Source of the DNA: Chondrosia reniformis
Lineage: Eukaryota > Porifera > Demospongiae > Chondrillida > Chondrillidae
Reading direction: 5' to 3'
DNA: 64,000 bases
NCBI GenBank assembly: GCA_947172415.1
Contig: OX359194.1
Span: 7,793,901 to 7,857,900 of the forward strand
A program made the position numbers and the translations under genes. Below the pieces are notes generated by a model, which was given only the letters and a program-made list of their open reading frames with translations, was not told the DNA's origin and searched no databases. The number at the start of each line of letters is the position of its first letter. The first letter of the stretch is position 1. Of the stretch, positions 27,805 through 64,000 are shown piece by piece.

Positions 27805-30800
27805 ATGGCCAACTCGAAGATTCAGCCATTTGCCAGAAAGCAATATGAATACAGTTCGCGCACACTTTGCGATCTCTCAAGCTGCACAAAGGAGTAAGGA
27901 GGAAGGAGCTGTGACCCATTTGGTACTTTGTTACGTTTGTTTTATCCTTACCAGGCAAGTAAAGGAGTACTTTTTGAACACTTACAATCTAGACGAAGGC
28001 ATATTTGCTGGCATTAAAGGTTAGAAATATTGCTGTGTGGCTATTGTTCATTTTACGTACCGCTATCTACAAGTAGAGGCGCAGTACTTTTACAAATGCC
28101 CGGATCGTCTAAGGCTCCCAATCGTTTTTTACGTCGCTCATCCTGCATCAGTCTACGTGAACAAGCTAATGTTAGCAGGGCTTTTGAAGGTAAGTTATTT
28201 CCAGAAAAATTCGCTTACAGATGCCTTTGAATTTCTCCTATGCTCCTATCCTTTAGAAGAGAGTAAATCCAGAATTTGAGTCGCTGTTTGAGACTGGTGT
28301 GGATGAAATGTCTTGGGATGATACAGTAAGTGTTGTACAACTTGTAATGACTATTACTTTAAATTTAATCCATTGATACTTTAGGAGAACTACAGAATGG
28401 GAGGAACTTTTAGATGGCCATCAATGGAGGAGGTGTTTGACTATAGAGAACGAGTGAAGAAGGTCATTTTGGATGTGATTGACAACACTCCCCTGAACCT
28501 TCCTATCACGCAGGACAGCCCATGGGTCGGTTGGCCACCTGTCTCTATAGTAATAATATAAACATGTTTTACTTATAATAATAGTTAGTTTATTTAGTTA
28601 AAATTTGACCTTTTGGGAAATTTGATCCTGCATGGGCCATTTTGTCAATAGCAGAGTTATTACAGATATTGTATAGCTTGTAGTACACTACAGACTTTTA
28701 AAATCGCTGTTTCCTGTTTTGAACCTGTAATGGTAACTGGATACACTGAAGTGATTGGTTACTAGAGACATAGGTATGGGAACAGAACAGGAGAACTAAT
28801 AGGAAACTACTGTAATAGAACATATATATTTATTTTACATGTTAACGCCAGTTGTTCTAAAACACATTCTCATGTAATTGCAATTGAGTTTGTAACTGCT
28901 ATTCTCATTTCTGATTAATATGTAGTGGTCAGTGTTTATGGGCTTTGATCATGAAAGGTATGCATTCATATTTCTAGCTTTTACTAACACATTTACATAT
29001 TTAAATTGTCAACTCTCGTAGAATACATATTGAAACATCTTCAGTTCTGATTAGACAGATGCCAATAGACTGTGTGCAAAAACCTGAAGGCTGGAAATAT
29101 GCCCCTGCAGAACTAGGTAGTGTGATTTCCTCTTCTTCCTCTCTCTCTCTCATACTCACTCTTTTACTCTCTCTCACTCTTTGTGATTTCATTGTGTCAA
29201 TGATGTCATATCTTGCAATTCTGTGAATCTGAAATTCTTTACCAACACCCTGATCCTTCCCTCTACTATTCATGCTGTTTTAAGCTTTCTTGAGATATTT
29301 TCAATTCATTCACAGATGGGCCTCCTGGACCAAATTCTTTCATCAAGGTGCCTGCTGGGAAGGCTGTCCTTGGCAAACCAAAGGACTTCCCCACATATGG
29401 CTGGGACAATGAATATGGATACTGTGAAGTTGAGTAAGTCCTTGCTTCAAGTTTCAACAGTGCTATAGCAGCAGTATATCTATATCAGTTAAATGAACCA
29501 TATACATTCTCCTGTAGTGTACCTGAATTTGAAGCCTCCAAATACCCAGTGACAAATAGAGAGTTTTTTCAGTTTGTGAATGATGGGGGATATCAGAACA
29601 AGGACTTGTGGACTGCAGAAGGTGGATAGATTTCAGGCTATCCTGTCACATAGTCTGTGAAGCTTTGTCTTCATGTTCATTGAATTCATTTAATTTACTA
29701 TAGGTTGGCATTGGGTCCAATTTCGAAAAGCTGTGCATCCAACCTTTTGGGTATGTGATCAGCTGTGTAATTCTGGATGTGGAGGTGACTTGTCATCATA
29801 TTCACACTGCCATCCCAAGTACTTTTCCTCCAATGGCCATACCAATAATGAAAATGGAAGGTATATCATGTTGAATATTAAAAGTAATAGTCAAACCTAT
29901 ATACGTATTTGAAACACAATTGAAAAGCACAACCAATGAAGGAATGCATAAACAGGAAAACATCCCAGTTATAGTTGCTGGGTGATTGTGGTTGCCACAG
30001 CAACAAATATTTTGGCAAGACCAAATTAGGAATCCTTATGGTTGTAGTTTGGACTAAGTGGGGTTGTTGATGACCTATGTTTTTGTAATCATTTTGCAGT
30101 GCTAATGGTCTTAATGGTACAAAGCAGACTTTCTTGTAAGTGCTACTCACTTCGCAGCCAATCACATTTCACTAAATTAGTTCTATTAACCAGCGACTTC
30201 CTTTGTTCCCTTAGGTACAGAGCAATCTACGACCTGTTGCCAATGCCATGGGATTGGCCTGTTGAGGTGAACTATCACGAGGCCAAAGCATTCTGCAAGT
30301 GGAAGGGTGATGCATACAGGGTCCCCACAGAGGCAGAATACAAATTAATGAGATGTGATAAGGTACAATCAGCCCTGCTGCCCTCAAAATATTCAAGTTT
30401 GATTTTCCTTGTTTTATGATAGCTAAATAAAAAAACTAATCAGATTCATAGTTGCAACTAGAACTATAAAACGTAGATGATTCATTATTATGGTATGTGG
30501 TTATAGTATTATGTTACCGAAATCAATTATGGTGTAACTTTATATGGGATGACTAATATATGAGGAGAGGGAACTTCAGTTTATGGTAATTATGAATACC
30601 TGTCATGTTGCAGCCAATAACTAACACTCTTGATTGTGATGCGGTCTGTGACCCTGGTTATCCTGCAAACCACAATTTGAAGTTTGGATCATCAAATGTA
30701 AGCTATGTTAGATATAGAAAATGCATATAACTTTTCTTTTATTTATATTAAGCAGACAATTATGTTCAATTCACCTCTACCTCTGCTTGTATCTTTTGGT

Positions 30801-33800
30801 TCATATAATTTGAAGTATCTTCTGTATCAACAATGAATCTCTCCTTCCCCAATTAACACATATGCATACTTACACACACACACACCTCCTTTGTTCTCCT
30901 TATCCTTAAGAGGATGTAGGGCAGGGTCGGATTACAGCACACCATGCAGATCGGTCTAGCACTACAGATGCCCACTCTGGTATAGCTCTTAGATCCCTGT
31001 TCACTATATCTATCCATCTAAGTCTTTTGGCCTTAACTTTCCTTTCAGCTTGCTGCATAGTAGTTGACGTTGTATTCTCCCGGTATCACATACACACACA
31101 CACACACATATATATAGAAAGATACATATATGCATACATAGATAGGTAGGTAGAGACAGTAATAGATAGTCAGAGAGAGATATAATATGATATAATTCCA
31201 AGGAATGCTGTGTTGATGTATGTAGATGTAGTGGACGTGTGGTGTATAGTGAAATATCCATTTTTTTCTATTCTGCATTTCAGCCAGTGAACATGTACCC
31301 TCCAAACAACCTGGGTTTCCATGACATATATGGTAATGTGTGGGAATGGACTGAGGACCACTTTAATGGGCTGCCTGGCTTTGCTACAACCTACCTCTAT
31401 GATGACTTCTCCACTCCCTGCTTTGATGGACGGCACAATATGATATCTGTAAGAATCAGTGGGTCGTGTTTGTTAATTATTAACACATTAGTGTCCCTAG
31501 ACGAGTGAGCCTGACTAGTATAAATTGTGACCATTCGTGCCAGTTTAATGCCCATGAGAAGGTGGATTATCCCAAATGTTAACTTTTAACAAGATATCTA
31601 GTTGTGATACTGGAATTTACCACTTTCCTCCGAAAACTTGCAATAGTCTCAAGAATCCTGACTCAGCGTGTTCGATGATGCATATTTCAAGTATATGGCT
31701 GTAATATATTGCTAGTTTCCATTAACTACGTATATAATATTACATGTATACAGCATGTGCTATCATTGTAAAAAGAATTTCAACTTGTTTTCTTAATTGC
31801 ATTCTGAATACTACCAATTTGAAGATAACAAGTTGAAATAGAAAACTGCATGGAGACTTAAATAAAACTGTAATAGTGTGTAACTGACTTTAATGTTCAA
31901 TTGTTGTATTTCTAACTGTCCTTTTTAATCCAACTTACCTCCTGAATAGCTTGGGATCAGTCTGAGGAACTCTTAAGTCTACCCTGCAACTCTTAAGTCT
32001 ACCCCGCAACTCTTTAAGTCTACCCCGCAACTCTTTAAATCTACCCCGCAACTCTTTAAGTCTACCCTGAGTCTACCCTGCAACTATTCCTGCAACTCTA
32101 TACCCTTAATAACCTATGGGGAACCTCTTATATATTTGTTTCCAAAGAGTTGCCTAGTTCTAGTATACCCTTTTGTGCTCCTATTTGGTAAGCCAAGTCC
32201 ACTTGCAGTATATGCACTGTAGCATAACACTGTTTGACGAAATATTTGCACAATTTTAATCCATTCGTTTTATGGACTTATTCCAATGGAGTACCAAAAC
32301 TCACGAAATGTTTTTTTTAACTTTGGAAGTAGTAGGGTTATTGTCAAGCTTTGGTTTCTTAATTCTCAATTAGTAGCTAAATGCAACTCTATGGTTGCTT
32401 CAGGAGAATGTAGGAAATGTATGGATTTTTAGTATGCGACTTTTACGGCGCAGATACATACGTATGTTGCGATTTCAACCCAGGGATCATATATATGTAC
32501 CTTTGTCTTCCAGTTGTTACTTGTATAATTTATTTTATCCAGGGGGGTTCCTGGATATCTGGTTACAGTGGGGGGTCACGTTTTGGGCGCTATGCTTTTA
32601 GGAGACACTTCTTTCAGCATATGGGTTTCCGTCTTGTGCGCTTCTCCACAGAAAAGCCAGCACCAGTGCGCCTGTGCAAGGTTGAGGTTTTCATACCTGG
32701 AGCTGGAGTACAGGGTAAGGTGTTTTAAGATTATAAATCCTTCTCTCTGATCATATTTACTAATCTGGTCCTTGTAGAAAATGCAATAACAGTTCCTTGT
32801 GTTGGTGACAAGCAGTTTTTTGAAAGCACCAATATCCAGTTCAACCACGAGACTATGGAATATCTCAATGGTATCCTTTCTGAGCAGTACCAGGAGGACA
32901 GTACCAAGCTCTTGGTGGACTTTTGTGATGTGATGCTGAAGAAGTATGATATAACTCTGAATAAAGCTGCTGAGTTTGGCTGTGGAACAGGACTGGCTTG
33001 TTTTCTACTCACAAAATTGTTCAACAAGGTAAGAGCTCATTGGAGTATTGAATCTATTAGAATATTTACCATTTTTGTAAACATGTGGTTTGGAGGAGTG
33101 CTAAAGTCTATGAATATTCCTATAACAGGTTATGGGTATGGATTACTCAGGTCGTCTGATTGATGCATCTGAACAGCTGAAGAAAGGAAAGACTGTTACT
33201 GATGGAACCGGATTCTCTTATGATCTGAAGGACTATGTAGGCATAAAGCCTAGCAGGTGTATCTTTAAACAGGTACAAGTCTTCACTGTTAGCTAAAATT
33301 AATTATGCATGTGTATGGACTTCTCCTTACTCAGATGACATGGGTACCAAATGAAATTTCTGGCTACAACTTTACCCTGTTTTCCTGCCTTGACAGACTG
33401 ACAAATCCCACAGGTGACCAAACCATACACAAGTACTGGTATCCAGGATACTATTCTAGTATATTAATGTTTTGTGTGTTTGATTTACAAGACTTAGTGC
33501 TGAATATAATACACTGAAGAGGCAGCCATGTATTTTATGCCTTCCCTACTTGGGAGTATCTGTTTTTGTACTGTCTAATAATATCACTGTATTACTATGT
33601 GGTACTGAGGAACCAAAAGAGTGACATTGATGATAGGATTTCTGGAGTATATACTGTATATATATAATATGTATGTATGTACATACTATATTTTGGTATT
33701 TGTATGCTATATTGATGAATTATATACTGTATGGACCTAAATTTTCGTGGGACTAAACTTTCGCGGATGGCTGCCAATCCGCGAAAACCATGAAAGTTTA

Positions 33801-34231
33801 ATCCTGCGAAAATTTAGGTCCATATGGTATATACAGGGCTTCAATTGTATCTGGCTGCTTTATAAAAGTATGTGACTATGTCTGTAGCTTCACATTAGAT
33901 GTGTAAATTCATTATAGGCTGGTTTTTGAAGTTGTGGGAAGTTCTTATACCAGGAGGACTTCTTGTAGTGGTGACTAAAAAATGGAATACTGAGGATATG
34001 CAGACACCTCTTTCTAACAGGTAGGCTGTGTGATATATACGTACATAATTTAGTGGGTAATTTGGTCCTTGACAGTAGTCAGTCCAAAAATCAGGTTTGC
34101 TGTATAAATGAATATCATTTTTGTTTTGGGATGTTGTATTTCTTGTACCATTGCTTTCTAGATTTTCTTTATGTGAAGAACAACTGGTTGCTGGGAAGAA
34201 GGTGTCCGTTTGGAAATTCAACCATGCATAA
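27805..34231 (+). CDS. ovoA: 5-histidylcysteine sulfoxide synthase / 4-mercaptohistidine N1-methyltransferase (OvoA)
   Basis: OvoA couples cysteine and histidine oxidatively (iron, O2) to 5-histidylcysteine sulfoxide. Its C-terminal SAM domain then methylates the thiol-histidine to ovothiol. Exons join in phase from 27805-27893 (MANSKIQPFARKQYEYS) through 27955-28019, 28074-28189, 28257-28325, 28385-28525, 28926-28957, 29022-29116, 29316-29433 and 29518-29621, and on to a TAA at 34229-34231. Order: DinB-like domain (PIVFYVAHPASVYVNKLMLA), with the HxxxHxE iron motif in GFDHERIHIETSS; FGE-sulfatase-like domain (PSTEAEYKLM-type PTEAEYKLMR, NVWEWTEDHFNG, GGSWISGYSGGSRFGR, FRRHFFQHMGFRLV); methyltransferase (AAEFGCGTGLACFLL, GMDYSGRLIDASEQL, PGGLLVVVTKKWN). 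All three domains look intact, at roughly 700 residues. It is followed on the same strand by a PLP enzyme. Confidence 0.93.
31083..31170. repeat. CA microsatellite and adjoining GATA-like low-complexity tract
   Basis: An (AC)n run at about 31089-31107 is followed by TATATA and GATAGGTAGGTAG-type repeats inside an OvoA intron. Low complexity only. Confidence 0.8.
31968..32098. repeat. Minisatellite of about 21 bp, five to six copies, in an OvoA intron
   Basis: The unit approximates CAACTCTTTAAGTCTACCCC with small variants, repeated from about 31968 and ending in decayed copies. It is GC-richer than the surrounding intron and non-coding. Confidence 0.85.
33731..33823. mobile_element. Foldback MITE in an OvoA intron
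   Basis: The ends ATGGACCTAAATTTTCG and CGAAAATTTAGGTCCAT are reverse complements, and the inner parts (AAACTTTCGCGGAT / ATCCGCGAAA...) also pair. The whole 93 bp can fold into one hairpin. The CGAAAATTT vocabulary is shared with the larger element at 34330-34710. Confidence 0.8.
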
Positions 34232-34329
34232 TTGCAAAGAGAAATTTACTTGCATAGCAAACTTGTTCAGTAGAATATCTTGCACTATTTGCAGCTATTT
34301 TCCCAATGTTCTTAGATCAGTTATGTTTC

Positions 34330-34710
34330 TACCGTAGTTCGGGAAATTTTCGTTGTTAAAATATTTTCGTGGTTGGCTCAAACCACGAAAATATTTTAAC
34401 ACGAAATATTTTTAACAACGAATAATAACACGTTGTACAATCTACGTATATATGTAAACGCAACACAGCTGAGCGCGGCCAAAATGGCTCTACTGCGATA
34501 CCTGCAGCGCAAGGACGGTTTACCGGACCCAAAGGGCTCACTTTCGTGAAAGCCGCGAACACAGAGATCCCTTTCGTAATCCTCTATTTCTCAACGTAAT
34601 TACGTAACGTGTATAAATTTTCGTGGTAGCCCCCAGACCACGAAAATATTTTAACACGAAAATTTTTTCCACGAAAATTTCCGAACACGAAAATTTCCCG
34701 AACTACGGTA
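34330..34710. mobile_element. Terminal-inverted-repeat element between OvoA and the PLP gene
   Basis: It begins TACCGTAGTTCGGGAAATTT and ends AAATTTCCCGAACTACGGTA, a perfect 20-bp or longer terminal inverted repeat. Sub-terminal arms (TTTTCGTGGT ... ACCACGAAAA) pair as well. A GC-richer core (about 34480-34600) has no transposase. The flanks share TGTTCTTAGATCAGTTA at about 34307 and 34720, suggesting a local duplication associated with insertion. A non-autonomous DNA transposon (MITE) fits best. Confidence 0.85.
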
Positions 34711-34843
34711 TTATCTTTTTTGTTCTTAGATCAGTTAGACTATGTATTATCTTTTTTGCAAACATGAAAGAAAAAATGGCCGCTAGTTGTACTTAATTAC
34801 CACTATTATATATATATATACACGATCTCAAGGTGACCACAAA

Positions 34844-36414
34844 ATGGAGTTTGGAAAGGCTTTTAAGGAAAAATACTTTAACTTCGACCCCGAGGCTGTG
34901 TTCTGCAACCACGGTTCGTTTGGTGCTGTTCCCAAGTCTGTACAGCAGTATCGAATTGAGCTTCTAGAAGAAGTAAACCGTCATCCGGATTCTTGGTTTC
35001 GCCGAAATTCTGTTCGTAACCTCACAGCAGTAGCTGCCAAAATAAGTCAGTTTATCGGTTGTGACGAAGGAGATGCTGTTTTAGTCGACAATGCTACAAC
35101 TGGAATTTCCATCCTGCTACACTCGTTGAAATTAGCTCCTAGTGACCGAATTCTTATCACCAGTCACACTTATGCAGCTGTAAAAAAGGCTGCAAATGAA
35201 TGTGGCGCCATTGTCCATGAATTAGACATTGAAGCGAAAGTGTCCAGTAAGGAGAGTGTTGTCGGGATGTATCGTCAAGCCCTTTCCGTTCACAATGACG
35301 TTAAGTTGGCGATAGTGGACCACGTAACCAGCCCTAGTGCAATGCTCCTTCCATTGGCCAAAATAGTCGAGGCGTGCAGGGAAAATGATGTGATGATATT
35401 GGTTGATGGAGCACACTCTCCTGGACATATTCCCCTTGATTTGAAGGCTTTAGACCCAGATTTTTTTGTAGGTTAGTTTGACATATATAGACCTCCAGAC
35501 ACTTTATACTTTATCGACACTCACTTAAAAGTATTACAAAATTATCTAGCAATAACAGCTTGTTTTCAAACGGTTTAGGCCTAGGTTGCTCAACTAGATA
35601 TTTTAACTTGTTTTGTTCAGGAAACCTACACAAGTGGTTGTTTTGTATCAGAGGGTGTGCAGTGATGTATGTGAAGAAGGTGCACCAGGACAGGATAACA
35701 CCAGTGGTTGTATCACACAATCACTATGAGCCATTTCAGAAAAGGTTTCCTGATGGGTCAACACGAGATTACACACAGCTTTGTTGTGCCTCCAAAGGCT
35801 TAGAGTTCTTTGAACAGTGTGGAGGATTTGTAAGTAAATCTGCTTATATATGCACACACTTTTTATAGTTCAAGGCTAGTACATACGTATATATATTCAC
35901 TTTTATAATACATAACTCTTTAAAACTTTTGAAGAATTGAATTAGACTTTTTACCTGCATGCATTGGTACTCTTGAATCTTCTTTTATGTATAGTAAAGT
36001 TGCTTGAATTTCAGTACGTACTACATGCTTGGAGCATCTGTAGCTCTAGTGTGCTTCATTTAATATACTGTATGTATAATATCAAATCTATAGGAATGTA
36101 TTACACCATACAATGTCAAACTTCTCAAGTGGGCTACTGACCATTTGATAAAGCAGTGGAAGACTCAGGGTAGTCCCTTTCCGGAGGAGCTGCAGGCACC
36201 TTTCATGTCTTTGGTGATGCTACCTCCAAAGAAGGAATACCTTCCTCCCTCAGAGGCCAGCGCAAATAGGATGATGTCAGACTTATTTTCAAAGTTCAAT
36301 GTGCAATCAGTTGTTCAGTATATTTTTGGAAATTTGTGGTGTAGACTTTCAGTACAAAATTATAATTGTAAGGAAGACTTTGAGAGACTAGCTGAAGCTG
36401 TACTTGCATTGTAA
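34844..36414 (+). CDS. PLP-dependent class V aminotransferase-fold enzyme, candidate ovothiol C-S lyase
   Basis: Three exons, 34844-35471, 35621-35829 and 36094-36414, join in frame to 385 residues. The protein belongs to the isopenicillin-N-epimerase / EgtE / Egt2-type branch of class V aminotransferases: FCNHGSFGAVPKSVQQY at the N-terminus, VDNATTGISILLHSL (PLP phosphate region), LVDGAHSPGHIPLDLKALD (PLP-ring Asp) and GNLHKWLFCIRG (Schiff-base Lys). It starts 612 bp after the OvoA stop on the same strand. OvoA makes a sulfoxide that needs a PLP C-S lyase (OvoB in bacteria; EgtE in ergothioneine synthesis), so this enzyme is a natural candidate. That role is inference from family and position. 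Other class V activities remain possible. The first ATG in the conserved frame was chosen as start. Confidence 0.85.
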
Positions 36415-40200: not shown

Positions 40201-43200
40201 TGTAAGGTGCTCACTGTCATCTAGGTATATACTTTAATAACTGGAATATGTAAAACTTAACATACATTACACACCAACCTGCTTATCGGTCACATTGAGA
40301 AGAGATGAGAAACGGCCAATTTGCCGATAAAAATTAGCCATTTCCTGTTAGAAAGAAGTCACAGAATTTCAAACCAATAGTTAAATAATATTACAAATAC
40401 ACCACATAATATTTTAAACTCTACAATGTATGTATAATAAGATAGGCTTTCTTACTGGAGAAAGATAAGGTAATTTGTCCTCGAGTGCTATACCATAAAA
40501 GATCCCCATTTTCTGCAGGAGAATATGTTTCATGAGATTATCACATATCTTTAGGCGATTAACCACAGCAGTGAGGCTCTTTAGAAGGGACGACCAAATC
40601 TCATCCGTCAAGTTGTAAGCAAACATTTCAATCTATTAAGGTACAGAGACAAATATTTAATTCTTATAGGACACTGTGCAACTGTATACACTGGCTAGCT
40701 ATAGATAATACAAACTACGTACGTACATAACATAATTATAAAATTGATGGGCCAAGGTGATTACATTAAAATTGGGGTAGTATATTAGTTACACTACATC
40801 AGACAAGATGAAGGATTGATTATTATTTAACCAATCTTTAGTATCAGTATATATATGTATGCACTGATCAACCTTACCTTTCTCTCCTTTGCTGAGAGTA
40901 CAAGCATTCTCTGCCGTGGGATAAAGACGGGTTTTGTTGTTGAGAGCTGCTGGAATGGTATATCAATAGTTGAACAAAACTTTTTGGAGTCTAGTGGCAT
41001 GAAGTACTGCAGAGGTCTTCTAGTTCTTTCATGCAACCATGGTTCATTGGAATGAAAGTCTGCCTGTGTAGGATTCCGAGCTTCCATCCATTGCTTTAGG
41101 CAAAATCCAAAAGAAATGATAGTGTCTTCAACGGAAGTAGGTTTTGTTACAGCGAGATACTCATTATTGGAGCATTGAAAGCTTCTGGTACAAAAATCTG
41201 GACAATGCTCTACTAGTAAACTGAGGGCTTTCTCCAGTAACTTGAGATTGTCAGAATGTGAAGGGACTGCACCTGACCAATAGTAGATGCCAGGCGTCGA
41301 AGCCTCCAAGAGGGCATGCAGAAACTTCCAAATCATGTGGCTGTAGTGAGGCTTTAGGTGGCCTTCAGTACCACTCTCCATTAACTGCTGTTTCTTCAGT
41401 AAATCAATCTTATGCCGCTTTTCCATTTCCACCTCCTTCCATGTTTTAGGAACAGAAGAAGTAAACACTTCCTCAGGACTAGGATCAGGGGTATTTGGTG
41501 AAGGTACTGGTTCTACCAGAGTATCTAAGCTAGTTTCCAAGTCCTCATCAGAGCTCAACATAGCAGGTCTATTTGGAACAAGACTCTGATTTCCAGATGG
41601 CAATTTTGGTTTTGGGACTACAGTTAATGGAGAAGGGAATAGAAAAACCTCCAAAAAGCAGGTCATCATTGCCGTCCTAAACATATTCTCAATCTTTGTC
41701 TTCAGATCATTTAAGGCAATATTTCCCTTCTCCCAGATGGTTACTTTGAATGCTATATCCAAGCAGGGGTACTTGTCCTTGAACAAACCGTAAGCCTCTT
41801 CGGCAGACCAGGACTGAGGAGAAGGGGGCACAGTTTCTGATGGGCCAAAGGGCAGCTCTCCAAACGCATCATGCAATGTTACAACAAGGAGACCCAAACC
41901 TGAACAGTTAATAGAGGAGTTACATCAGTGTTGTATTATGTATATTCGTATATTCGTACCTAACGTTGTATTATTATTCATACATTTTAAGTTTCAAAAC
42001 CTAGCTCCATTTACACATGAGCTTGTAAACAAAAAACAAATGTTGTGTACTTAATATAAATACAGTCAAAATAAATGGAAACTACCAGACTTTGTGACTA
42101 AATGAAGTTACAATACAATGAATAACAGACTGTTTGGAATTGAAATATATTGTCATACCTCGACCCTGTTGTACAGGCCTCAAATACAAAAATATTGCAT
42201 CATCAACTGATCCCTATACAGTTTAAAAATGGTAATAAGTAAAATAAAACATTTATTGCATAATATTCATGTATACTTACTGTAAAGGTGTCTGTCTCTT
42301 TGGTATAGTGTGGCTTTATGGTGATGGTACTTAGCAGCTGGAAAAAGTACACAGCCAGGGCTTGGACATAATCACCAAGTAGCTTAGGAACTAGTAGTGA
42401 GATCTTTACACTGGGTGCCTGCAGCTTAGGCTGAATGAAACGGACGTCTTGTGGTGCCAGCTTAACATTGGTACTGCGTCCAAACTGGGCACAGAGAAGT
42501 TCCAGTGCCATATCATCCAGCTTCCTCTGTAACACTCCCATTATATTTTCCAGCAGCTTGTCAGCTAATCAGAGGAAATAAAATTTATATACGTAGGTAT
42601 TACATATCGTTCTTAGAGAAACCTGTGGCATAATACAAACTTTTGAGCTGCCAATCAAAGCTAGTTATAGGGTCAGGACTAAACACCAGGTAACTACCAT
42701 TGCTACTTGCAAGGTTACCATGTCATCCACCCAGGTACATATCCGAGGTCACTGTGAGCAGGTCTTGACTATTATACCATCTACCTAGTAGGCATCAATA
42801 CACACTATATTTTCATATGTCCTTGCTTTACTTTTTATTGCTATTAGCTGTAATGATACTGCATAACACTTTACCAGGAGTAGGTACTAGTAGTTGATTT
42901 AGGGTATGTGGCTGACTCACATGGTGGACATATTCCATAAATACTGACTTTAATACTGGGTACTGTGGTATGGCTGGTCTCCACTGGAGAAGGTATGGAG
43001 ATCACACTCTAAACAAGAAATAGGACCAAGACAAATAAATACACTCCAATAATACTCTTTCAAATAGGTAGCACTGGTGGTTCAGTGGTAGAATCCTCGC
43101 CTGCCACGCGGGGGGCCCGGGTTCGATTCCCGGCCAGTGCATACTTTTTCTTTTTTTTCCTTTTTTACGTTAAACCGTAAATGACACCTACGTACCTCTT

Positions 43201-50655: not shown

Positions 50656-53600
50656 GTACTGGAATAAGCCAAGCACAGCCAATAGGTAGGTTAGGTACAC
50701 CTTACAACTAATAATATATGTATATAGCTAGGTATGTACGTATGCAATAAACTAGTCAGCTTCTCTAGCTTGAGAGCAACCAGTGAATAGTATAAATGTA
50801 TGTATTGTATGTATATGGGTATAAGGAATCAGTGGGACATTAATATACTGTTTTACAGTCAGTTGGGAAAGAGACAACTATGTATTCCGAGAGATGACTG
50901 ATACAGATGTTGCAATCACACTAGTACTGGCTGACCCAGCCCCACCTGGTGGAGTTAGTGTTGAACTGGTCTTTACAGATGGCACAGCTACTACAGGTAA
51001 TGCAATCAAGATTGTAATGTTACGCAATTTTATCATTATAATCATTGCTCTTGCTAATCCAACAGGGAATGACTATTTGGCTCCTAATACCATGGTGGGA
51101 TTCTCTGAGGGAGAAATAACTAGGAGCGTTGGTATTACTATAGTAAATGACAATGATAATGAGGAGGATGATCAGATCTTCACAGCAGAGATCATGAACA
51201 ACCCAAGCATAACTTTAGGAACTCCATCAGTGACTACAATCAGAATTTTGGATAATGAAGGTAATTACAACTTGGTCAATAAAGAAACCTTTTATAATGT
51301 CTGTAGGCACTAGATTTCTCGACCATATCATTATGTCATTATGTGACATTTTCTAATTATCATACACAGTCCATAGTATAGGACTTTAGACTGGACGAAG
51401 GTTAATGTAGCCAACCTTTTCTTACTTTTACAGCCACCACAGGGATTATGCCAAGTGGCTTTAACCTCACCCCTGAACCCGAATCAATCTTAATTTCATG
51501 GTCAAATGATGGATGCCCTTCGAGCTTTAATCCTGAAGAGTTCTTTATCCGAATTAATGAAGAACCATTCATTAGAGTTATTTCAACTCAGTCTTCCTAT
51601 ACTGTTCCTGATTTGACTCCTTTCACAAACTATACATTCGTAATCATACTCAAATGTCAAAATTTTCTTGGCAGTCAAGTTTTAAACACAGATCCTAGCT
51701 CACCTATTGAAGGAGCAACTGAACAAGGAAGTAAGTATATACTCTCTAGTAAATGCAAATTCTCAACTTCATTTTTGAATATTTTCCTTGTAATCTCTAT
51801 CCTAAGGACCTAGTGAAGTTAGAAATTTAACAGTAGAAACAATAGGAGCAACCTTCATCCAAATTTCATGGATAGAACCTGAAGTTACAAATGGAATCAT
51901 CACCAGCCATATAATATTTGTCAATGGTACTGAAGTTAATAATACTGGTGCGGTTACAAATTTCACAATAATTGGTCTTGAACCACTTACAACCTATGAA
52001 ATTGGAGTTATTGCATTAAGTGCCAACCCTATTGGAGGAACACTTGCTAGTATAATTGCAATGACAACACCAGCTGGTACGTAAGTTAAGATAGCAAAAT
52101 ACTTGCCAGTTACACTTGACAGTATACGTAGGTAAATGTGCGTATGTACTGTATACTAGCCAAAGATATCATACTATGAATGTCTGGGATACTGAGTGCT
52201 AATTTGTATACCATTTCTATGTGTGTAGCTCCTGATAATATGCCAGCAGATCTACAGATTATATCTCTAACACAGACTAGTTTGGAGGTCAACTGGACAA
52301 TTCCAGCAGGATCTGGTCCTATTGACAGCATATTCATATCTTGGGAGCCCTTGGGTGATCTTGCTGGAATGCCTGCATTCAGTGGAACTATGTCTATAAA
52401 TGCTGCAGACATCTCTTTCAATATCACAGGGCTTGAAGAATTCATTACTTACAACATATCTGTTAGATTTGTAAACGTTGGTGGAAGTGGTCCACCTGAG
52501 ACAATAGAGGGAACCACACAGCCAACCAGTAAGAACTATATAGATACGTACTTGTGATTTATCATATACATACATACGTAATGTGTAGTGAAATGATAGG
52601 GGGTAATTTTAGTTGCGTTCATTATGAAAGATAAGTTTATTGGAGCTCAAAAATTGAGCTAGTTTGAACGTTTCGACCCGTACTTACTGCTGATGAAGAC
52701 CTATGGGTCGAAACGTTCAATCTAGCTCAATTTTTGTTACTGATAGCTCCAATAAACTTATCTTTCAAAATGTGTAGTATATTAAGTTTATGGTATAATA
52801 TTAAATAGCTAATCATAACAACACATTCTCTTCTTCATGGTTTACACAGATCCAAGTGCTATACCTAATGAAATACGCAGCAGCTTTACGAATGCCACTT
52901 CAGTACTGGTTGAATGGGATGCAATACCTTTTCAAGATCAAAATGGACCAAACTTTATGTATCAACTAACTATTAATGGAATGAATGATACAAATACCGC
53001 TGATACAAGCTTCACATTTACTGACCTAACACCCTGTACTGACTACAACATATCTCTCACAACCCTTAATGATGTTGGAACATATCCAGGATCAGTCTTT
53101 GTAGAAGTAACAACTGACTTTCAGGGTAAGACCTTAAAGAAAACAATATATAGAAACTAAATTATTGGATTTTGTATTTATTTTACAGTTCCAAGTGCTC
53201 CAAGTGACTTGACTCTCACTCCTACTGACACCACTATACAAGTTACTTGGACCCTACCATCAGATCCTTGTCCAGCAGATGGAATCTTCATCATGTGGAG
53301 CCCTTCCAACCTGCCATCCAGTGTAGTCCTCCCTGGAGGAATGGACCAGGTGGATCCCACAGCAACATCATACACAATTATGGGACTGGAGGAGTATATC
53401 ACCTATCAGGTAGATGTACTCATTGGCAATGCTGCAGGGAATGGAACAGCTGCTACAGCAAATGTTACCACTGATCCAGTTGGTAAGTTTACTATTTTAA
53501 AGAACGTACACATGTAAAGTAGTATTTCTCCATTTGGTTCACAAACAGTACCAAGTGATGCTCCAAATGATTTGATAGAGATATCAAGAACAGATGATTC

Positions 53601-56600
53601 TGTCAACTTTACTTGGATCCCCATTGACTATCTGGATCAGAATGGACCTAACTTTCAATATGTTGTATTTTATGCTTATGAAGGCAGTGAGAGGAATACT
53701 ACAACTGATATGACATTCAAACAGCTTACCAACCTCATGGAGTGTACACAGTTTAACATTACAGTAGGCACTCAAAACAGCGAGGGACTACATGCCAGGA
53801 GAAGTGACATCTTGACATTCATTACTCCAGTGATATCCAGTAAGGATGTTTTATTAATGTGTTAACTTAGCTAAGCATATCCTCATATTTACAGTTCCAA
53901 GTGCTCCAAGTGACTTGACTCTCACTCCTACTGACACCACTATACAAGTTACTTGGACCCTACCATCAGACCCTTGTCCTGCTGACAACATCACTGTCAT
54001 GTGGAGACCTGCCCCATCAGCATGTTCAGGAATAGCTGGTGGAATGATGGTTATAAGCAGTACAGATACATCATACACAATTATGGGACTGGAGGAGTAC
54101 ACTCCTTATGAGGTGTCCGTTCTCATAAGTAATGCTGCTGGAATAGGACCAAATACTTCTGACACAACAACTACAACATCAATAAGTGAGATAACCTTTA
54201 ATAGCTAACTCTAAATATTACTGTTCTTGAATTTTCATATACGTACGTATATTAACTACAGTACCAGCTGCAGTTCCAACCAATGTTATGGCAACGCAAT
54301 TGAGCAATGATAGCATTACCCTTGAATGGGATGCAATCACTTGTGTTGATGAAAATGGACCAAATCTGGAATATGTCATCTCCTACGTAGCAGCAAGTGG
54401 TGGCGTGGAGATGAGCAGGACAACAACAAACTTATCAGTAACCCTTATGGACCTAATGGAATGCACTCGATATAATATTTCTGTAGCAACCAGAAATGAC
54501 ATTGGTGTAAGCATGGAAACAAGAGATGCTATGTATACAACTACTATTAACAGAGGTAAATAAATAAAGCTTGAAACAAAATCTTAATGTTTAACAAAAT
54601 CGTTTTATCATTTTCTGATAGCCCCTAACAATCCAGGTGTAATAACTACAACACCAGCCTCCACCAGTATTACTGTTATGTGGAATGAAGATGATTGTCC
54701 TGTTGAGAATGTTGTCATTGAGCATGCCGCTATTAATCTACCAAATGGAGAGCCCATGGGAAATACAACAATTCCCGGAAGTCAATCCTCTTTTATAATT
54801 ACTGGTTTGGAGGAGTTTGTAACATATAGAATCACAGTTTTGTTTGTCAATAGCATTGGGAATAGCTCCAACATGACAACAACAACAACTCTTCCTGATG
54901 GTAAACAATCCTTACTATAGCTACGTATATACGTACATATGTATGTAGGAGATCATATACGTGATGAATATTATCTCATCTTTGATGCCTTCATATAACA
55001 TATGTAGAATATGTACATACATTGTCTGCCTTTTAGAAAATTAAATTACATTAGAAATAACTCTTTTTATATAGTTCCTGCTGATGCACCACCTATTCCA
55101 TTTGAAAATGCTTCTGCCTTCACTAACATCACTGTATCATGGGAAGAAATATCATTTTTGGATCAAAATGGACCAGATTTTGTCTACATAGTCTTTTACG
55201 TCGGTAATGGTGTTGAGATGAATACAACCACTTCAAATAACTTGGCCACCATAACCAATCTAGAAGAATGTACTAACTACAGTATAACTGTAGGAACTCA
55301 GAATTCACAGGGAGTATTTAGTAACAGAAGCAGTGAAATTATGTTTGAAACACAAAGCGTTAGCGGTGAGACATAGCATTGACAATTACGAATTACATGA
55401 GCAGACATTTAGGAACAAATCTGCCAGATTACCCTTATGTACATATATGTATGTATACTACCTACACAGTCAAATAAAGCACTTTATTCTGTTAAATGTA
55501 TGTAGTCCCGGGTGCCGTGGTGCTTGGATTATCATCATCAACAGTAGACAACATATCAATAAGCTGGACACTCCCAACCACAGACCCGTGTCCCATTCAA
55601 TACATAAATATTAGATGGGAAGCCATCAGCTGTCCTGTATCTGGGGGGATGCAACGTCTATCAGATATTACAGCTACAACATATGATATAACTGGTCTGG
55701 AGGAATACATTGCCTACCAAGTATATGTTACTCTTGAAAATACTGTTGGAAATGGTAGCAGTAGTGCAATGAACTATACCACAGCTTCTACAAGTTAGTA
55801 ATCTTAATGTGGACTTAGTTTATGTTATCAAACTCATTCATGACACATAATGTACACATGTATATTATTAAACAACCTATGCAGCATATACAGTATCTTC
55901 TACCCACAGATGTACCAGATTCTGTTCCAATGGAAATCAGATTAAGGATGAGCAGAGCAACTGAGCTTGTAATAGAATGGGATCCCATTCCGTGTTACAA
56001 CCAAAATGGACCAGGATTTGTATATGTTTTGAATATAAATGGAAGTGAAATTGAAACTGCTGAAACAAACTTCATATTTACAAACTTACAGCCATGTTCT
56101 GTCTATGAAATAAGCATTATAACTGCAAATGTGAACGGGAACTCAACTCTGAATTCAACAGTAGCAAGCTTCACAACATTTCCTACAGGTACTACAGCTG
56201 GGAGATGTATATATTAATAGCTAGACTACAAAGAATTATTCTTAACGAAATCTCATAAATTTCTACAAAATGGAATAAGTAGTATCTATATAGTAATATG
56301 TTATTAGGACCATTACACACATTAGAAAATAGTTATTGCTTGCATGTATTCCCAACCTGTATACACATATATGCAGCAAGTATATCTTCATATTTACAGT
56401 TCCAAGTGCTCCAAGTGACTTGACTCTCACTCCTACTGACACTACTATACAAGTTAATTGGACCCTACCATCAGACCCTTGTCCTGCTGACAACATCACT
56501 GTCATGTGGAGACCTGCCCCATCAGCATGTCCAGGAATAGCTGATGGAATGATGGTTATAAGCAGTACAGATACATCTTACACAATTATGGGACTGGAGG

Positions 56601-58454
56601 AGTACACTCCTTATGAGGTGTCCGTTCTCATAAGTAATGCTGCTGGAACAGGACCAAGTACTTCTAATACAACAACTACACTCCCAATAAGTGAGATCAA
56701 TTTTTGTATATTAGCCTTGAACTCTAATGTATTCTGTAGATATGGAAAAATCTATAATTTACATTGTAAGATATTGTACATGCATTCATAATCTTTCTGT
56801 TATGTTAAATTCCTAGTCCCAAGTCAAGTTCCTGCAACAATAATAGAAAGTAGTGCTACATCAAGCACTATCTATGTCACTTGGAATGCTATTGACTGCA
56901 CAAGTTGGAATGGACCAAACTTTTCTTATATTGTCTACTACTCAAACAATGGAAATGAGACAAACATGACTACAACTGACACCTCTTTCAACATATCAGA
57001 TCTAGTGGAGTGTACTACATACAATATCTCCATAGGCACCCAAAATGATGAAGGACAGAACAATGACAGAAGTACACCAGTACTTGTGGAAACATGTAAG
57101 TACTGCACATAAAGACTTTACACACATACACACACATCTAATAAAGTTAAACACCCTGTATCTTTCTCTCAAATGGTGTAGATCCCATTGCTGTTCAAGG
57201 GTTAACTGTAATTTCAGAATCTGTGACAAGTACTACTATTGACATTACCTGGACAGCTCCAGAAGGACCTTGTCCATCACCTGATAGCAGTTACTACATC
57301 ACATACACTCCACTTCTCAGTGGTACATCTCTACAGACCATGTCAGCTACAGTCAATTCTAGTACTACTAGGTATCAGATAACTGGTCTCAATCCTGGCG
57401 TACAGTATAGGATATCAGTGGCAATTAGAACCAATGAGGGAGTACTTGGGCCAGCCAGTTCACAAACTGCCAAAACCGATGAATCAGGTATAGTTTCAGG
57501 GTAGCTGTAAAATGCACATAAATTTGATACAACCTTTCAACATTCATCAATATTTTACTTACAGTGCCCTCAGTAAATCCAGGAATTGATGATGTTACAT
57601 TCACTCCTGATGGTGGCTTAATGGTCACATTTGAAGAATTACAACACCCAAATGAAACCAATGGAGATGTCACGTATATGGTATGCTACACTCCACAAGG
57701 AGGAGCTGCCAGTGAAATGGTCTGCAGGAACTCAACCAGCAGTCCAGTCATATTCCCTAATGTGAATCCCAATAGTGTATATGATGTTACAGTTTCAGCC
57801 ATAAATGGAGCAGGACAAACACAAAGTGACATCTTCACAATAGGTTAGTGGATAAATGATACCTCCCATATAATGCCATGTACGTATTTCAGGGTTACAA
57901 ATTAAAGGTGCTATTCCCAGGGAAGCTATCTGGCTCAGTGGAGCAAAAGAATATAGAGAAGACTTTTGTATCCTCTTCCAAAGTTGTCTAGGTTTACGTA
58001 CTTCCTATTTAAAAGTATGTACACATCTATCAAGTATAGATATGGGAAAATGGTGCTTTTAAGGGACTCGTATACATACAATATATGTAAGGGACAAAAT
58101 GATATTTCTAAATGCAATATATGTACGTATGTAAGGTTACCTATTCTATATTCTATGTATTCTATGTATCTATCAAAAACACACACTCAAATTAATTAGG
58201 AATACAGGGTAGTTAGAATAGTTAATCATTCAATACATTAGTACAGCACTTTTACTAACAATTACATTTAATTAAGGGTGCCTTGATCAATCTTTATCTT
58301 TACAAACTATTCTGTAGATGGAACAGTTGACCGATTGGAGGTGAATGAGCTTATTTTGGTGATAACCCTAAGTGTAATTGGATCAATAGTCTTTCTCACT
58401 ATCATCATCACCTTGGCAATTTACTGTTATCTGTTCCAAAGAAAAAAGGCTTAA
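50483..58454 (+). CDS. Calx-beta plus sixteen-FN3 single-pass adhesion-type protein, copy 1
   Basis: The signal-peptide exon 50483-50522 (MVIRLEILIWLSI) splices over a CT-repeat intron to GISQAQPI. A Calx-beta domain follows (50859-51260; VELVFTDGTATT, YLAPNTMVGFSEGE, DNDNEEDDQIF). Then come sixteen FN3 domains, mostly one exon each with phase-1 borders: 51434, 51807, 52230, 52848, 53189, 53549, 53895, 54262, 54622, 55075, 55503, 55909, 56399, 56817, 57180 and 57566 (approximate starts). A membrane helix at about 58360-58434 (ILVITLSVIGSIVFLTIIIT) precedes a very short tail (FQRKKA, stop 58452-58454). From the third FN3 on, two types alternate, one with a DPCP-like motif and one with an NGPNF-like motif. 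Many N-glycosylation sites. Probable extracellular adhesion or recognition role without signalling in the tail. Confidence 0.9.
50605..50656 (+). repeat. (CT)n microsatellite forming the polypyrimidine tract of intron 1
   Basis: About 20 CT units lie directly against the CAG acceptor of exon 2. The second gene copy has the same tract at about 60041-60068, roughly 30-40 bp shorter. Confidence 0.95.
52625..52767. mobile_element. Foldback MITE inserted only in FN3 gene copy 1
   Basis: The arms TGAAAGATAAGTTTATTGGA and TCCAATAAACTTATCTTTCA are exact reverse complements, and inner arms (AATTGAGCTAG / CTAGCTCAATT; GAACGTTTCGACCC / GGGTCGAAACGTTC) pair too. The centre contains CTGATGA followed by GAAAC. 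The equivalent intron of copy 2 (61933-62000) has no such sequence. Confidence 0.88.
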
Positions 58455-59936: not shown

Positions 59937-62900
59937 GATTAGAAATTTTAATCTGGCTTTCAATATGTGAGTTCTAATTCCAGTACTGTTACAGTAGCTA
60001 CAGTATCAAAATGTATCTAATACAAAAAACTATTATTCATCTCCCTCTCTCTCTCTCTCTCTCTCTCAGGTACTGGAATAAGCCAAGCACAGCCAATAGG
60101 TAGGTTAGGTACACCTTACAACTAATAATATATGTATATAGCTACGTATGTACGTATGCAATAAACTAGTCAGCTTCTGTAGCTTGAGAGCAACCAGTGA
60201 ATAGTATAAATGTATGTATTGTATGTATATGGGTATAAGGAATCAGTGGGACATTAATATACTGTTTTACAGTCAGTTGGGAAAGAGAAAACTATGTATT
60301 CCGAGAGATGAATGATACAGATGTTACAATCACACTTGTACTGGCTGATCCAGCCCCACCTGGTGGAGTTAATGTTGAACTGGTCTTTACAGATGGCACA
60401 GCTACTACAGGTGATGCAATCAAGATTGTAATGTTATGCAATTTTATCATTATAATCACTGCTCTTGCCAATCTAATAGGGAATGACTATTTGGCCCCTA
60501 ATACCATGGTGGGATTCTCTGAGGGAGAAAAAACTAGGAGCGTTGGTATTACTATAATAAATGACAATGATAATGAGGAGGATGATCAGACCTTCACCGC
60601 AGAGATCATGAACAACCCAAGCATAACTTTAGGAACTCCATCAGTGACTACAATCACAATTTTGGATGATGAAGGTAATTACAACTTGGTCAATAAACAA
60701 ACCTTTTATAATGTCTGTAGGGACTAGATTTCTTGACCATATCATTACGTCATTATGTGACATTTTCTAATTATCATACACAGTCCATAGTATAGGCCTT
60801 TAGACTGGACAAAGATTAATGGAGCAAACCTTTTTATACTTTTATAGCCACCACAGAGAGTATGCCAAGTGGCTTTAACCTCACCCCTGAACCCGAATCA
60901 ATCTTAATTTCATGGTCAAATGATGGATGCCCTTCGAACTTTAATCCTGAAGAGTTCTTTATCCGAATTAATGAAGAACCATTCATTAGAGTCATTTCAA
61001 CTCAATCTTCATATACTGTTCCTGATTTGACTCCTTTCACAAACTATACATTCGTAATCATACTCAAATGTCAAGATTTTCTTGGCAGTCAAGTTCTAAA
61101 CACAGAACCTAGCTCACCTATTGAAGGAGCAACTGAACAAGGAAGTAAGTACTCCCCAATACAAATTCTCAACATCATTTTTGAATAATTTCCTTGTAAT
61201 CTCTATCCTAAGGACCTAGTGAAGTTAGAAATTTAACAGTAGAAACAATAGGAGCAACCTTCATCCAAATTTCATGGATAGAACCTGAAGTTACAAATGG
61301 AATCATCACCAGCCATAGAATACGTGTCAATGGTACTGAAGTTAATAATACTGGTGCGGTTACAAATTTCACAATAACTGCTCTTGAACCACTTACAACC
61401 TATGAAATTGGTGTTATTGCATTAAGTGCCAACCCTATTGGAGGAAACCTTGCTAGTATAATTGCAATGACAACACCAGCTGGTACGTAAGTTAAGCTAG
61501 CAAAATACTTGCCAGTTACACTTAACAGTATACGTACGTAAATGTGCGTATGTACTGTATACTAGCCAAAGATATCATACTATGAACTACAGAGTGCTAA
61601 TTTGCATACCATTTCTATGTGTGTAGCTCCTGATAATATGCCAGCAGATCTACAGATTATATCTCAAACACAGACTAGTTTGGAGGTCAACTGGACAATT
61701 CCAGCAGGATCTGGTCCTATTGACAGCATATTCATATCTTGGGAGCCTTTGGGTGATCTTGCTGGAATGCCCGCATTCAGTGGAACTATGTCTATAAATG
61801 CTGCAGACACCTCTTTCAATATCACAGGGCTTGAAGAATTCATTACTTACAACATATCTGTCAGATTTGTAAACATTGGTGGAAGTGGTCCACCTGAGAC
61901 AATAGAGAACACCACACAGCCAACCAGTAAGAAATGAGAGATACATATTTGAAAATACATATAATGTGCAAATGTGTATGAATATTCTTTGGCTAATCAT
62001 AACAACACATTCTCTTCTTCATGGTTCACACAGATCCAAGTGCTATACCTAATGAAATACGCAGCAACTTTGTGAATGCCACTTCAATAGTGGTCGATTG
62101 GGATGCAATACCTTTTAAAGATCAAAATGGACCAAACTTTATGTATCAACTAACTATTAATGGAATGAACGATACAAACACCACTGATACAAGCTTTACA
62201 TTTACTGACCTAACACCCTGTACTGACTACAACATATCTCTCACGACCCTTAATGATGTTGGAACATATCCAGGATCAATTTCTGCTGTAACTGATTTTC
62301 AAGGTAAGATCTATAATTTTGTATACGTAGAAAACATTATTCAAACATGTTACTTCCATTTTTCAGCTCCTAGGCTCGACACCATTACTATACTACCAGC
62401 CTCCACCAATATTACCATTACATGGAGTGAAGATGACTGTCCTTTTGAAAATGTTGTCATTGAGCATGCTGCTATTAATCTACCAGATGGAGTCACACTG
62501 CCCATGGGAAGTACCACAATTCCTGGAAATCAATCCTCTTTTATAATTACTGGTTTGGAGGAGTTTGTAACATTTAGAATCACAGTTTTGTTTGTCAGTA
62601 GCAAAAGGAATAGCTCCAACATGACAACAACAACAACTCTTCCTGATGGTAAACAATCCTTACTATTGCTACATACGTATGTAAGAGATCATATACGTAT
62701 AATATTCAACTTTCACTATTGAGATGAATATAGGTATAAGCATTGTTTGTCTTTTAGATCATTTAATTACATTAGAAATAACTCTTCTTACGTATACAGT
62801 TCCTGCTGTCGCACCAGCTACACTTTTCGAACACTCTTCTGCCTTCACTAACATCAATGTATCGTGGCATAAAATATCATTCTTGGATGAAAATGGACCA

Positions 62901-64000
62901 GATTTTACCTACATAGTCTTTTACATCGGTAATGGTGTTGAGATGAATACAACCACTTTGAATAACTTTGCCACCATAACCGATCTAGAAGAATGTACTA
63001 ACTACAGTATAACTGTAGGAACTCAGAATTCACAGGGAGTATTTAGTAACAGAAGCAGCGAAATTATGTTTGAAACACAAAGCGTTAGCGGTGAGAGGAA
63101 CAAATCTGCCAAATTACCCTTATTTACATATATGTATGTATACTACCTATACAGTCAAATAAAGCACTTTATTCTGTTAAATGTATGTAGTCCCGGGTGC
63201 CGTGGTGCTTGGATTATCATCATCAACAGTAGACAGCATATCAATAAGCTGGACACTCCCAACCTCAGACCCGTGTCCCATTCAATACATAAATATTAGA
63301 TGGGAAGCCATCAGCTGTCTTGTATCCGGGGGAATGCAACGTCTATCAGATATTACAGCTACAACATACAATATAACTGGTCTGGAGGAATACATTGATT
63401 ACCAAGTATATGTTACTCTTGAAAATACTGTTGGAAATGGTAGCAGTAGTGCAATGAACTATACAACAGCTTCTACAAGTTTGTAATCTTAGTGTGGACT
63501 TGGTTTATGTTATCAAACTCATTCACGACACATAATGTATATATTATTAAACAACTTGTGCAGCATACACAGTACAGGGCATAATAAAAAAACTACAAAC
63601 ATCACTATCTTTTCTACCCACAGATGTACCAGATTCTGTTCCAATGGAAATCAGATTAAGGATGAGCAGAGCAACTGAGCTTGTAGTAGAATGGGATCCC
63701 ATTCCATGTTACAACCAAAATGGACCAGGATTTGTATATGTTTTGAATATAAATGGAAGTGAAAATGAAACTGCTGAAACAAACTTCATATTTACAAACT
63801 TACAGCCATGTTCTGTCTATGAAATAAGCATTATAACTGCAAATATGAACGGGATATCAGTAATAGTAATAATGGTAGCAAGCTTCACAACACTTCCTAC
63901 AGGTACGTACTACAGCTGGGAGATGTATATATTAATAGCTAGACTACAAAGAATTATTCTTAACGAAATCTCATAAATTTCTACAAAATAGAATAAGTAG
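59937..64000 (+). CDS. Calx-beta plus FN3 adhesion-type protein, copy 2 (3' end outside window)
   Basis: The same signal-peptide exon opens at 59937. It is followed by GISQAQPI, a Calx-beta domain (about 60274-60675; TDGTATT, YLAPNTMVGFSEGE) and FN3 exons at about 60848, 61214, 61627, 62034, 62367, 62800, 63190 and 63625. FN3 units 1-4 of copy 1 are matched. The next exon here (APRLDTITILPASTNITITW) corresponds to unit 9, so units 5-8 are missing without loss of frame because the exon borders share a phase. Units 10, 11 and 12 follow. The last in-window exon ends at about 63902 with a donor site, and the membrane segment lies beyond the window. The reading frame stays open, so both copies look functional. 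Confidence 0.88.
60041..60068 (+). repeat. (CT)n microsatellite in intron 1 of FN3 gene copy 2
   Basis: Shorter counterpart of the tract at 50605-50656, again serving as the polypyrimidine tract next to CAG. Confidence 0.95.

Follow-up and report, generated by a model that had tools for sequence, protein, structure and literature searches.

Which enzyme cleaves 5-histidylcysteine sulfoxide in an animal that carries OvoA, and could its gene lie next door? The question is raised by a 64,000-nucleotide stretch of the genome of the kidney sponge Chondrosia reniformis (hereafter the window), in which OvoA is followed, head to tail on the same strand of contig C6, by a gene for a class V pyridoxal 5'-phosphate (PLP) enzyme, here PLP1, with 612 bp between the stop codon of the one and the ATG of the other. 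In metazoans other than hydrozoans OvoB had not been identified, according to PMC8623360. Our answer, to which we give about an even chance, is that OvoA and PLP1 would be a pathway pair for 5-thiohistidine or the antioxidant ovothiol, with PLP1 as candidate 5-histidylcysteine sulfoxide lyase and as a non-homologous counterpart of bacterial OvoB.

What supports such a pair is the same-strand adjacency, with a spacing of only 233 bp before a mobile element was inserted. A class V PLP gene at this distance and in this orientation was the starting point of the original prediction, and both gene models bear it out (Table 1). The OvoA model is a prediction from sequence, with splice sites chosen by score among the in-frame options, several of them below the top scorer, and all 19 of its introns are GT-AG; for PLP1, a single GT-AG combination stays open among the site ranges tried. 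Bacterial contamination of the locus was rejected on the strength of the GT-AG introns (19 in OvoA and 2 in PLP1) and of the chromosome-scale contig. The published assembly is described as 117.37 Mb in 14 chromosomes and a mitochondrion, with 17,340 protein-coding genes, and RNA-seq data for the species are reported to exist (PMC12181767). If that gene number is assumed, the chance of one named gene adjoining OvoA is 1.2e-4, or 2.3e-4 for two candidates, figures that overstate the significance, since the pair was spotted after the fact.

Table 1. Coordinates of the features discussed (window positions unless a contig is named)
Feature	Position	Strand	Remarks
Window	C6:7793901-7857900		chromosome-scale contig of the 117.4-Mb genome (117,379,552 bases, 15 contigs)
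OvoA gene	27805..34231	+	20 exons, 744 aa
OvoA exons 1-10	27805-27893, 27955-28019, 28074-28189, 28260-28325, 28385-28525, 28926-28957, 29022-29116, 29316-29433, 29518-29621, 29704-29860	+	
OvoA exons 11-20	30100-30135, 30215-30362, 30614-30697, 31284-31448, 32543-32714, 32778-33028, 33129-33272, 33335-33413, 33918-34020, 34162-34231	+	
OvoA exons 16-20 (from residue 530)	32778..34231	+	shortened methyltransferase region; S-adenosylmethionine (SAM) motif AEFGCGTG at 594; WLGG segment absent
MITE-like element (MITE, miniature inverted-repeat transposable element)	34332..34708	.	377 bp; perfect 21-bp terminal inverted repeats between TA duplications
PLP1	34844..36414	+	class V PLP enzyme, Egt2-like group; exons 34844-35471, 35621-35829, 36094-36414; 385 aa
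PLP1 exon 2	35621..35829	+	K214 (HKWLF) and divergent loop VSHNHYEPFQKRFPDGSTRDYTQ (240-262)
PLP2	C6 about 7775851-7782630	minus	second Egt2-like gene, taken to be a single gene with several exons; 39 kb upstream of OvoA

The identity of the first gene is clear from its synthase half. OvoA scores 599.5 bits on the ovoA_Nterm equivalog TIGR04344 (cut-off 400), and its best match in the PDB is the OvoA structure 8khq, with an expect value (E) of 9.8e-116. Residues 1-510 are identical at 100 of the 108 columns conserved to at least 95% in 80 bacterial OvoA proteins, a set that consists of the best 80 of at least 587 loci and has full 10-kb flanks in 46 of the 80. The iron-ligand histidines H74, H168 and H172 are present, with the HX3HXE motif in the form HERIHIE, as are M107, Y456, F459, H494 and F495; counterparts of all these residues are named in a model of sea urchin OvoA (PMC4768315), in a paper that also lists an OvoA from another sponge, Amphimedon (XP_003388095). 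About 43 extra Cys-rich residues stand at about 293-335 relative to 8khq. The second PDB match is EgtB-IV, and this, along with 160 bits on the EgtB model TIGR03440, raises the alternative that the pair makes ergothioneine, the EgtB-like protein acting on hercynine. We hold that to be highly improbable: the TIGR03440 score is far below its cut-off of 360, whereas ovoA_Nterm is above its own, and an exon-by-exon search of the sponge genome with Methyltransf_33 (EgtD-type, PF10017) gave no match at E up to 1, albeit by a procedure that a split gene could escape; the search gave matches in 2 of 14 control genomes. Ergothioneine was rejected as the likely product on this absence of an EgtD-type match, which makes it the less likely one.

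The methyltransferase half is another matter. Only 12 of 23 such conserved columns are kept in residues 511-744, and a segment of about 35-45 residues with the WLGG motif is gone; no missing exon was seen by eye in the 141-bp intron between exons 19 and 20. Because this segment is missing and the domain reaches only 48.9 bits on the C-terminal methyltransferase model TIGR04345 (cut-off 170), the third domain of OvoA is probably impaired. The original description of an intact three-domain OvoA thus holds for the sulfoxide-synthase half but not for the shortened methyltransferase.

PLP1 carries its Schiff-base Lys in GNLHKWLF, as originally described: K214 aligns with that of Egt2, and the best Pfam family is Aminotran_5, at 78.5 bits (cut-off 21.5), as against 34 bits for Aminotran_1_2, on which scores a MalY/PatB-type OvoB (class I/II) was set aside for PLP1. 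Besides K214, PLP1 has D188, H191, Y110 and R363 aligned to counterparts in Egt2 or in the family; these residues are common to the class V family and not specific to sulfoxide lyases. The Egt2 position that corresponds to Y110 is Y in the PDB sequence 5uts and F in 5v12 and 5v1x, the latter being, we presume, a deliberate mutant of the catalytic Tyr. At the top of the PDB matches of PLP1 are the class V entries 9aza, 9azb and 8dl5 (best E 3.6e-31), which we take to be of fungal origin, followed by Egt2 (4.6e-27) and, lower, by C-DES cystine lyase (5.2e-14), PvdN (2.1e-10), SufS (5.3e-10) and the EgtE-type 8irk (6.3e-5). Kynureninase is absent among the 60 of 96 matches listed, and Egt2 ranks far above the desulfurases, so that by PDB scores neither of these two identities, which would have undone the prediction, was seen; the trees held neither group.

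What kind of class V enzyme this might be is best approached through its nearest relatives. No NCBIfam equivalog fits PLP1, since the two highest-scoring models, PvdN (68.7 bits, cut-off 650) and SufS (68.7 bits, cut-off 475), stay below their cut-offs, as does EgtE (TIGR04343, 48 bits, cut-off 400). EgtE in the strict sense was rejected on the last of these, despite the likeness that both are class V and EgtE is a sulfoxide lyase. Identities are 30% between PLP1 and PLP2 (a second sponge gene, considered below), 29% between PLP1 and Egt2, and 30-34% between PLP1 and three bacterial homologues. In a tree of 25 rows, PLP1, PLP2, Egt2 and 8dl5 join against the bacterial homologues with support of 96/92; PLP1, Egt2 and 8dl5 still join when PLP2 is left out (92/85), as do PLP2, Egt2 and 8dl5 when PLP1 is left out (95/91). 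For these values the program warns that branches are long and that long ones meet; the trees contain just two eukaryotic rows from outside the sponges, both taken from printed alignments, and no desulfurase or kynureninase row. The earlier label of an EgtE-like PLP enzyme therefore survives in the sense of an Egt2-like class V protein and fails for EgtE proper. PLP1 would be OvoB-like in role and outside the bacterial OvoB family, a member of the Egt2-like group and not of the EgtE equivalog.

Among the closest known systems is Egt2, the hercynylcysteine sulfoxide lyase of Neurospora crassa (PDB 5uts; PMC9103826 gives the species), which shares with PLP1 membership of class V, the HKWLF Lys motif, an NHGSFG N-terminus and the matching Tyr and Arg, at 29% identity over 333 aligned residues, and for which the same kind of reaction is proposed. 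The two differ in that Egt2 has Egt1 and hercynine as partners, whereas PLP1 would pair with OvoA and histidine and has a divergent loop at 240-262. A further possibility is that PLP1 acts generally on cysteine and cystine, as a C-S lyase or desulfhydrase, and stands beside OvoA by chance. C-DES is, after all, the next PDB match once Egt2 and the 8dl5/9aza entries are passed, many neighbouring genes are unrelated, and homologues of PLP1 are frequent in bacteria that lack an OvoA above the cut-off (in Planctomycetota, 49 of 191). We consider this unlikely, as PLP1 is closer in sequence to Egt2 than to C-DES and the chance of such a neighbour is about 1e-4.

A scheme consistent with these assignments can be written in full. 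The iron-dependent synthase half of OvoA would join cysteine and histidine to give 5-histidylcysteine sulfoxide. PLP1, with its internal aldimine at K214, would bind the cysteine part as a PLP aldimine, remove the alpha proton and eliminate a sulfenic acid, which thiols would reduce to 5-thiohistidine, while the aminoacrylate left behind would break down to pyruvate and ammonia. PLP1 would in this way do the job of bacterial OvoB with a different PLP family. The chemistry is that reported for EgtE and Egt2. According to PMC9103826, EgtE cleaves a sulfoxide via a sulfenic acid, OvoB of E. tasmaniensis performs the ovothiol step, and cleavage of sulfoxides of this kind is a known activity of class V enzymes. 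Because of this literature on the OvoB and EgtE step, together with the adjacency to OvoA, we regard PLP1 as the strongest candidate that this genome offers for the lyase step, with chances about even when the alternatives are that PLP2 or some other PLP enzyme is the lyase, or that PLP1 has an unrelated role. As for animals with both activities in the genome, the known case is that of the hydrozoan OvoA and OvoB (PMC8623360, PMC9103826). The hydrozoan OvoB is reported there to be of bacterial transfer and fused with OvoA, while the sponge PLP1 is a separate, intron-bearing class V gene. Among the matches listed in open-licence literature, we recognised no description of a class V lyase beside OvoA.

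Several observations weigh against this proposal and have to be taken together. On the side of OvoA, L66 and T453 of the sponge protein correspond to His in 80 of 80 bacterial OvoA proteins (the EgtB-IV chain aligned to OvoA has Asn at the L66 position), and, because of these changes and the degraded methyltransferase, OvoA activity is itself an assumption. The same features could be read as a locus on its way out, in which the function of OvoA is being lost and the two genes have ceased to be a working pathway; a decayed piece of OvoA also lies at C4:1129500-1139400, along with a second copy of the gene that precedes OvoA in the window. Such decay is very unlikely in view of the 20 open exons, the 100 of 108 conserved synthase columns, and the retention of iron and named active-site residues. 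On the side of PLP1, its branch in the tree is long, and its loop 240-262 deviates from the family SHG..F..W.GT pattern. Moreover, all of the evidence comes from one genome, so that the label of metabolic gene cluster, for which adjacency on one strand was found (612 bp, or 233 bp minus the element), is only partly supported.

The remaining points in this group concern how specific the Egt2 likeness is, and here PLP2 has to be considered. OvoA is flanked by both Egt2-like genes, all within about 55 kb, the exons of PLP2 being separated by an intron of about 4 kb that holds a large minisatellite. The best PDB match of the partial PLP2 model is again Egt2 (E 1.6e-26), as it is for a bacterial homologue of PLP1 (5.7e-40; L113, in the Opitutales genome of L075, where OvoA lies elsewhere). 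Since both share it, the Egt2 likeness is a family trait and not substrate-specific, and after these two controls the rank of Egt2 was dropped as evidence on substrate. By sequence PLP2 is the equal of PLP1 as lyase candidate, and the two being in the same clade, sequence cannot choose between them. The lyase might then be another PLP enzyme of the genome, foremost PLP2, in which the SHG..F..W.G loop of the family is retained and which shares its chromosome with OvoA, with PLP1 doing something else; the description of bacterial OvoB as a beta-lyase of broad specificity (PMC12631010) fits this alternative too. We consider it the less likely outcome, and what sets PLP1 apart is that it is adjacent to OvoA and PLP2 is not. 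The claim that the neighbour is the missing lyase accordingly stands as to an Egt2-like enzyme adjoining OvoA, but it is weakened by a likeness that is family-wide and by a second gene of equal standing.

With PLP1 as query, the sponge genome yielded only its own exons and two weak pieces on C6 (E 0.004 and 0.009), which we read as parts of PLP2, and no second close copy was found. PatB-like matches are weak, the best exon reaching 63.8 bits (cut-off 340). From their motifs, we take the other class V matches to be NFS1, a sphingosine phosphate lyase-like protein, MOCOS, PSAT and a desulfurase-like pair.

The bacterial comparison adds to the points against the proposal. Only 1 of the 80 bacterial OvoA loci has a class V gene in its flank (L068, about 5 kb from OvoA), whereas 23 of the 80 have, at 0.9 kb or less from the OvoA match, a MalY/PatB-type open reading frame (typed with a partial query) that we infer to be OvoB. 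For PLP1 and bacterial OvoB the same reaction is proposed and the gene adjoins ovoA in both, yet the bacterial neighbour is class I/II and PLP1 is class V. Homologues of PLP1 (E <1e-34) are present in 9 of 49 bacterial OvoA genomes drawn from the 80-locus set, and tblastn of their neighbourhoods found no OvoA near any of the nine. An Egt2-like gene occurs in none of the 12 genomes with a MalY-adjacent OvoA and in 9 of the 37 others (p 0.09, confounded by phylum). Among 199 Planctomycetota, 53 have a PLP1 homologue (<1e-34) and 8 have OvoA over cut-off, and the homologue is found in 4 of these 8 versus 49 of the 191 others (p 0.21); in the 4 genomes with both, it is always on another contig than OvoA. 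From these counts and the separate contigs, the bacterial family of PLP1 homologues is not tied to OvoA. The EgtE reference, at E 1e-60, is found in 1 of 60 genomes of one bacterial phylum (that of G047).

If the OvoA-PLP1 pair does make 5-thiohistidine, its ring may be methylated by another enzyme or not at all, because the methyltransferase domain of OvoA is shortened. Candidates lie on C14: TIGR04345 matches 33 exon-level pieces in the sponge genome, 30 of them at C14:580710-845564, none above cut-off alone and in a setting where weak matches are present in 14 of 14 control genomes. The pieces on C14 are apparently an array of OvoA C-terminal-type methyltransferase genes. Three adjoining ones at 580710-582021 cover positions 42-242 of 242 with 41.1, 76.7 and 70.2 bits, which in an informal sum exceed the score of OvoA's own domain, and the array could supply the methylation of ovothiol. 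A broader and decidedly tentative scenario, which we rate as possible rather than probable, is that an Egt2-type class V lyase was taken up by sponges in the role of the animal OvoB and kept beside OvoA as a unit of two genes, with the fused methyltransferase decaying and stand-alone OvoA C-terminal-type methyltransferases taking over, so that two of three known activities would have been replaced. In any case, the linked class V gene offers an enzyme that can be expressed and assayed and a sequence with which other animals can be searched and, if the assignment is true, the same sulfoxide cleavage is performed by two unrelated PLP families.

The gap between the two genes is mostly filled by the MITE-like element, and neither AATAAA nor ATTAAA was found within it. 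A genome search with the element (query 34331-34710, 380 bp) returned at least 147 matching pieces, a lower bound in that 40 of 280 candidates were scored. Copies at C1:5492147 and C2:7307632 score equal to the one in the window, and the insertion is therefore recent, which suggests that the element has been recently active. Elsewhere in the window, a tRNA-Gly(gcc) is found at 43071-43141, and fibronectin-type repeat exons form two blocks that are similar by eye, at 50825-57845 and 60239-64000, apparently a local duplication.

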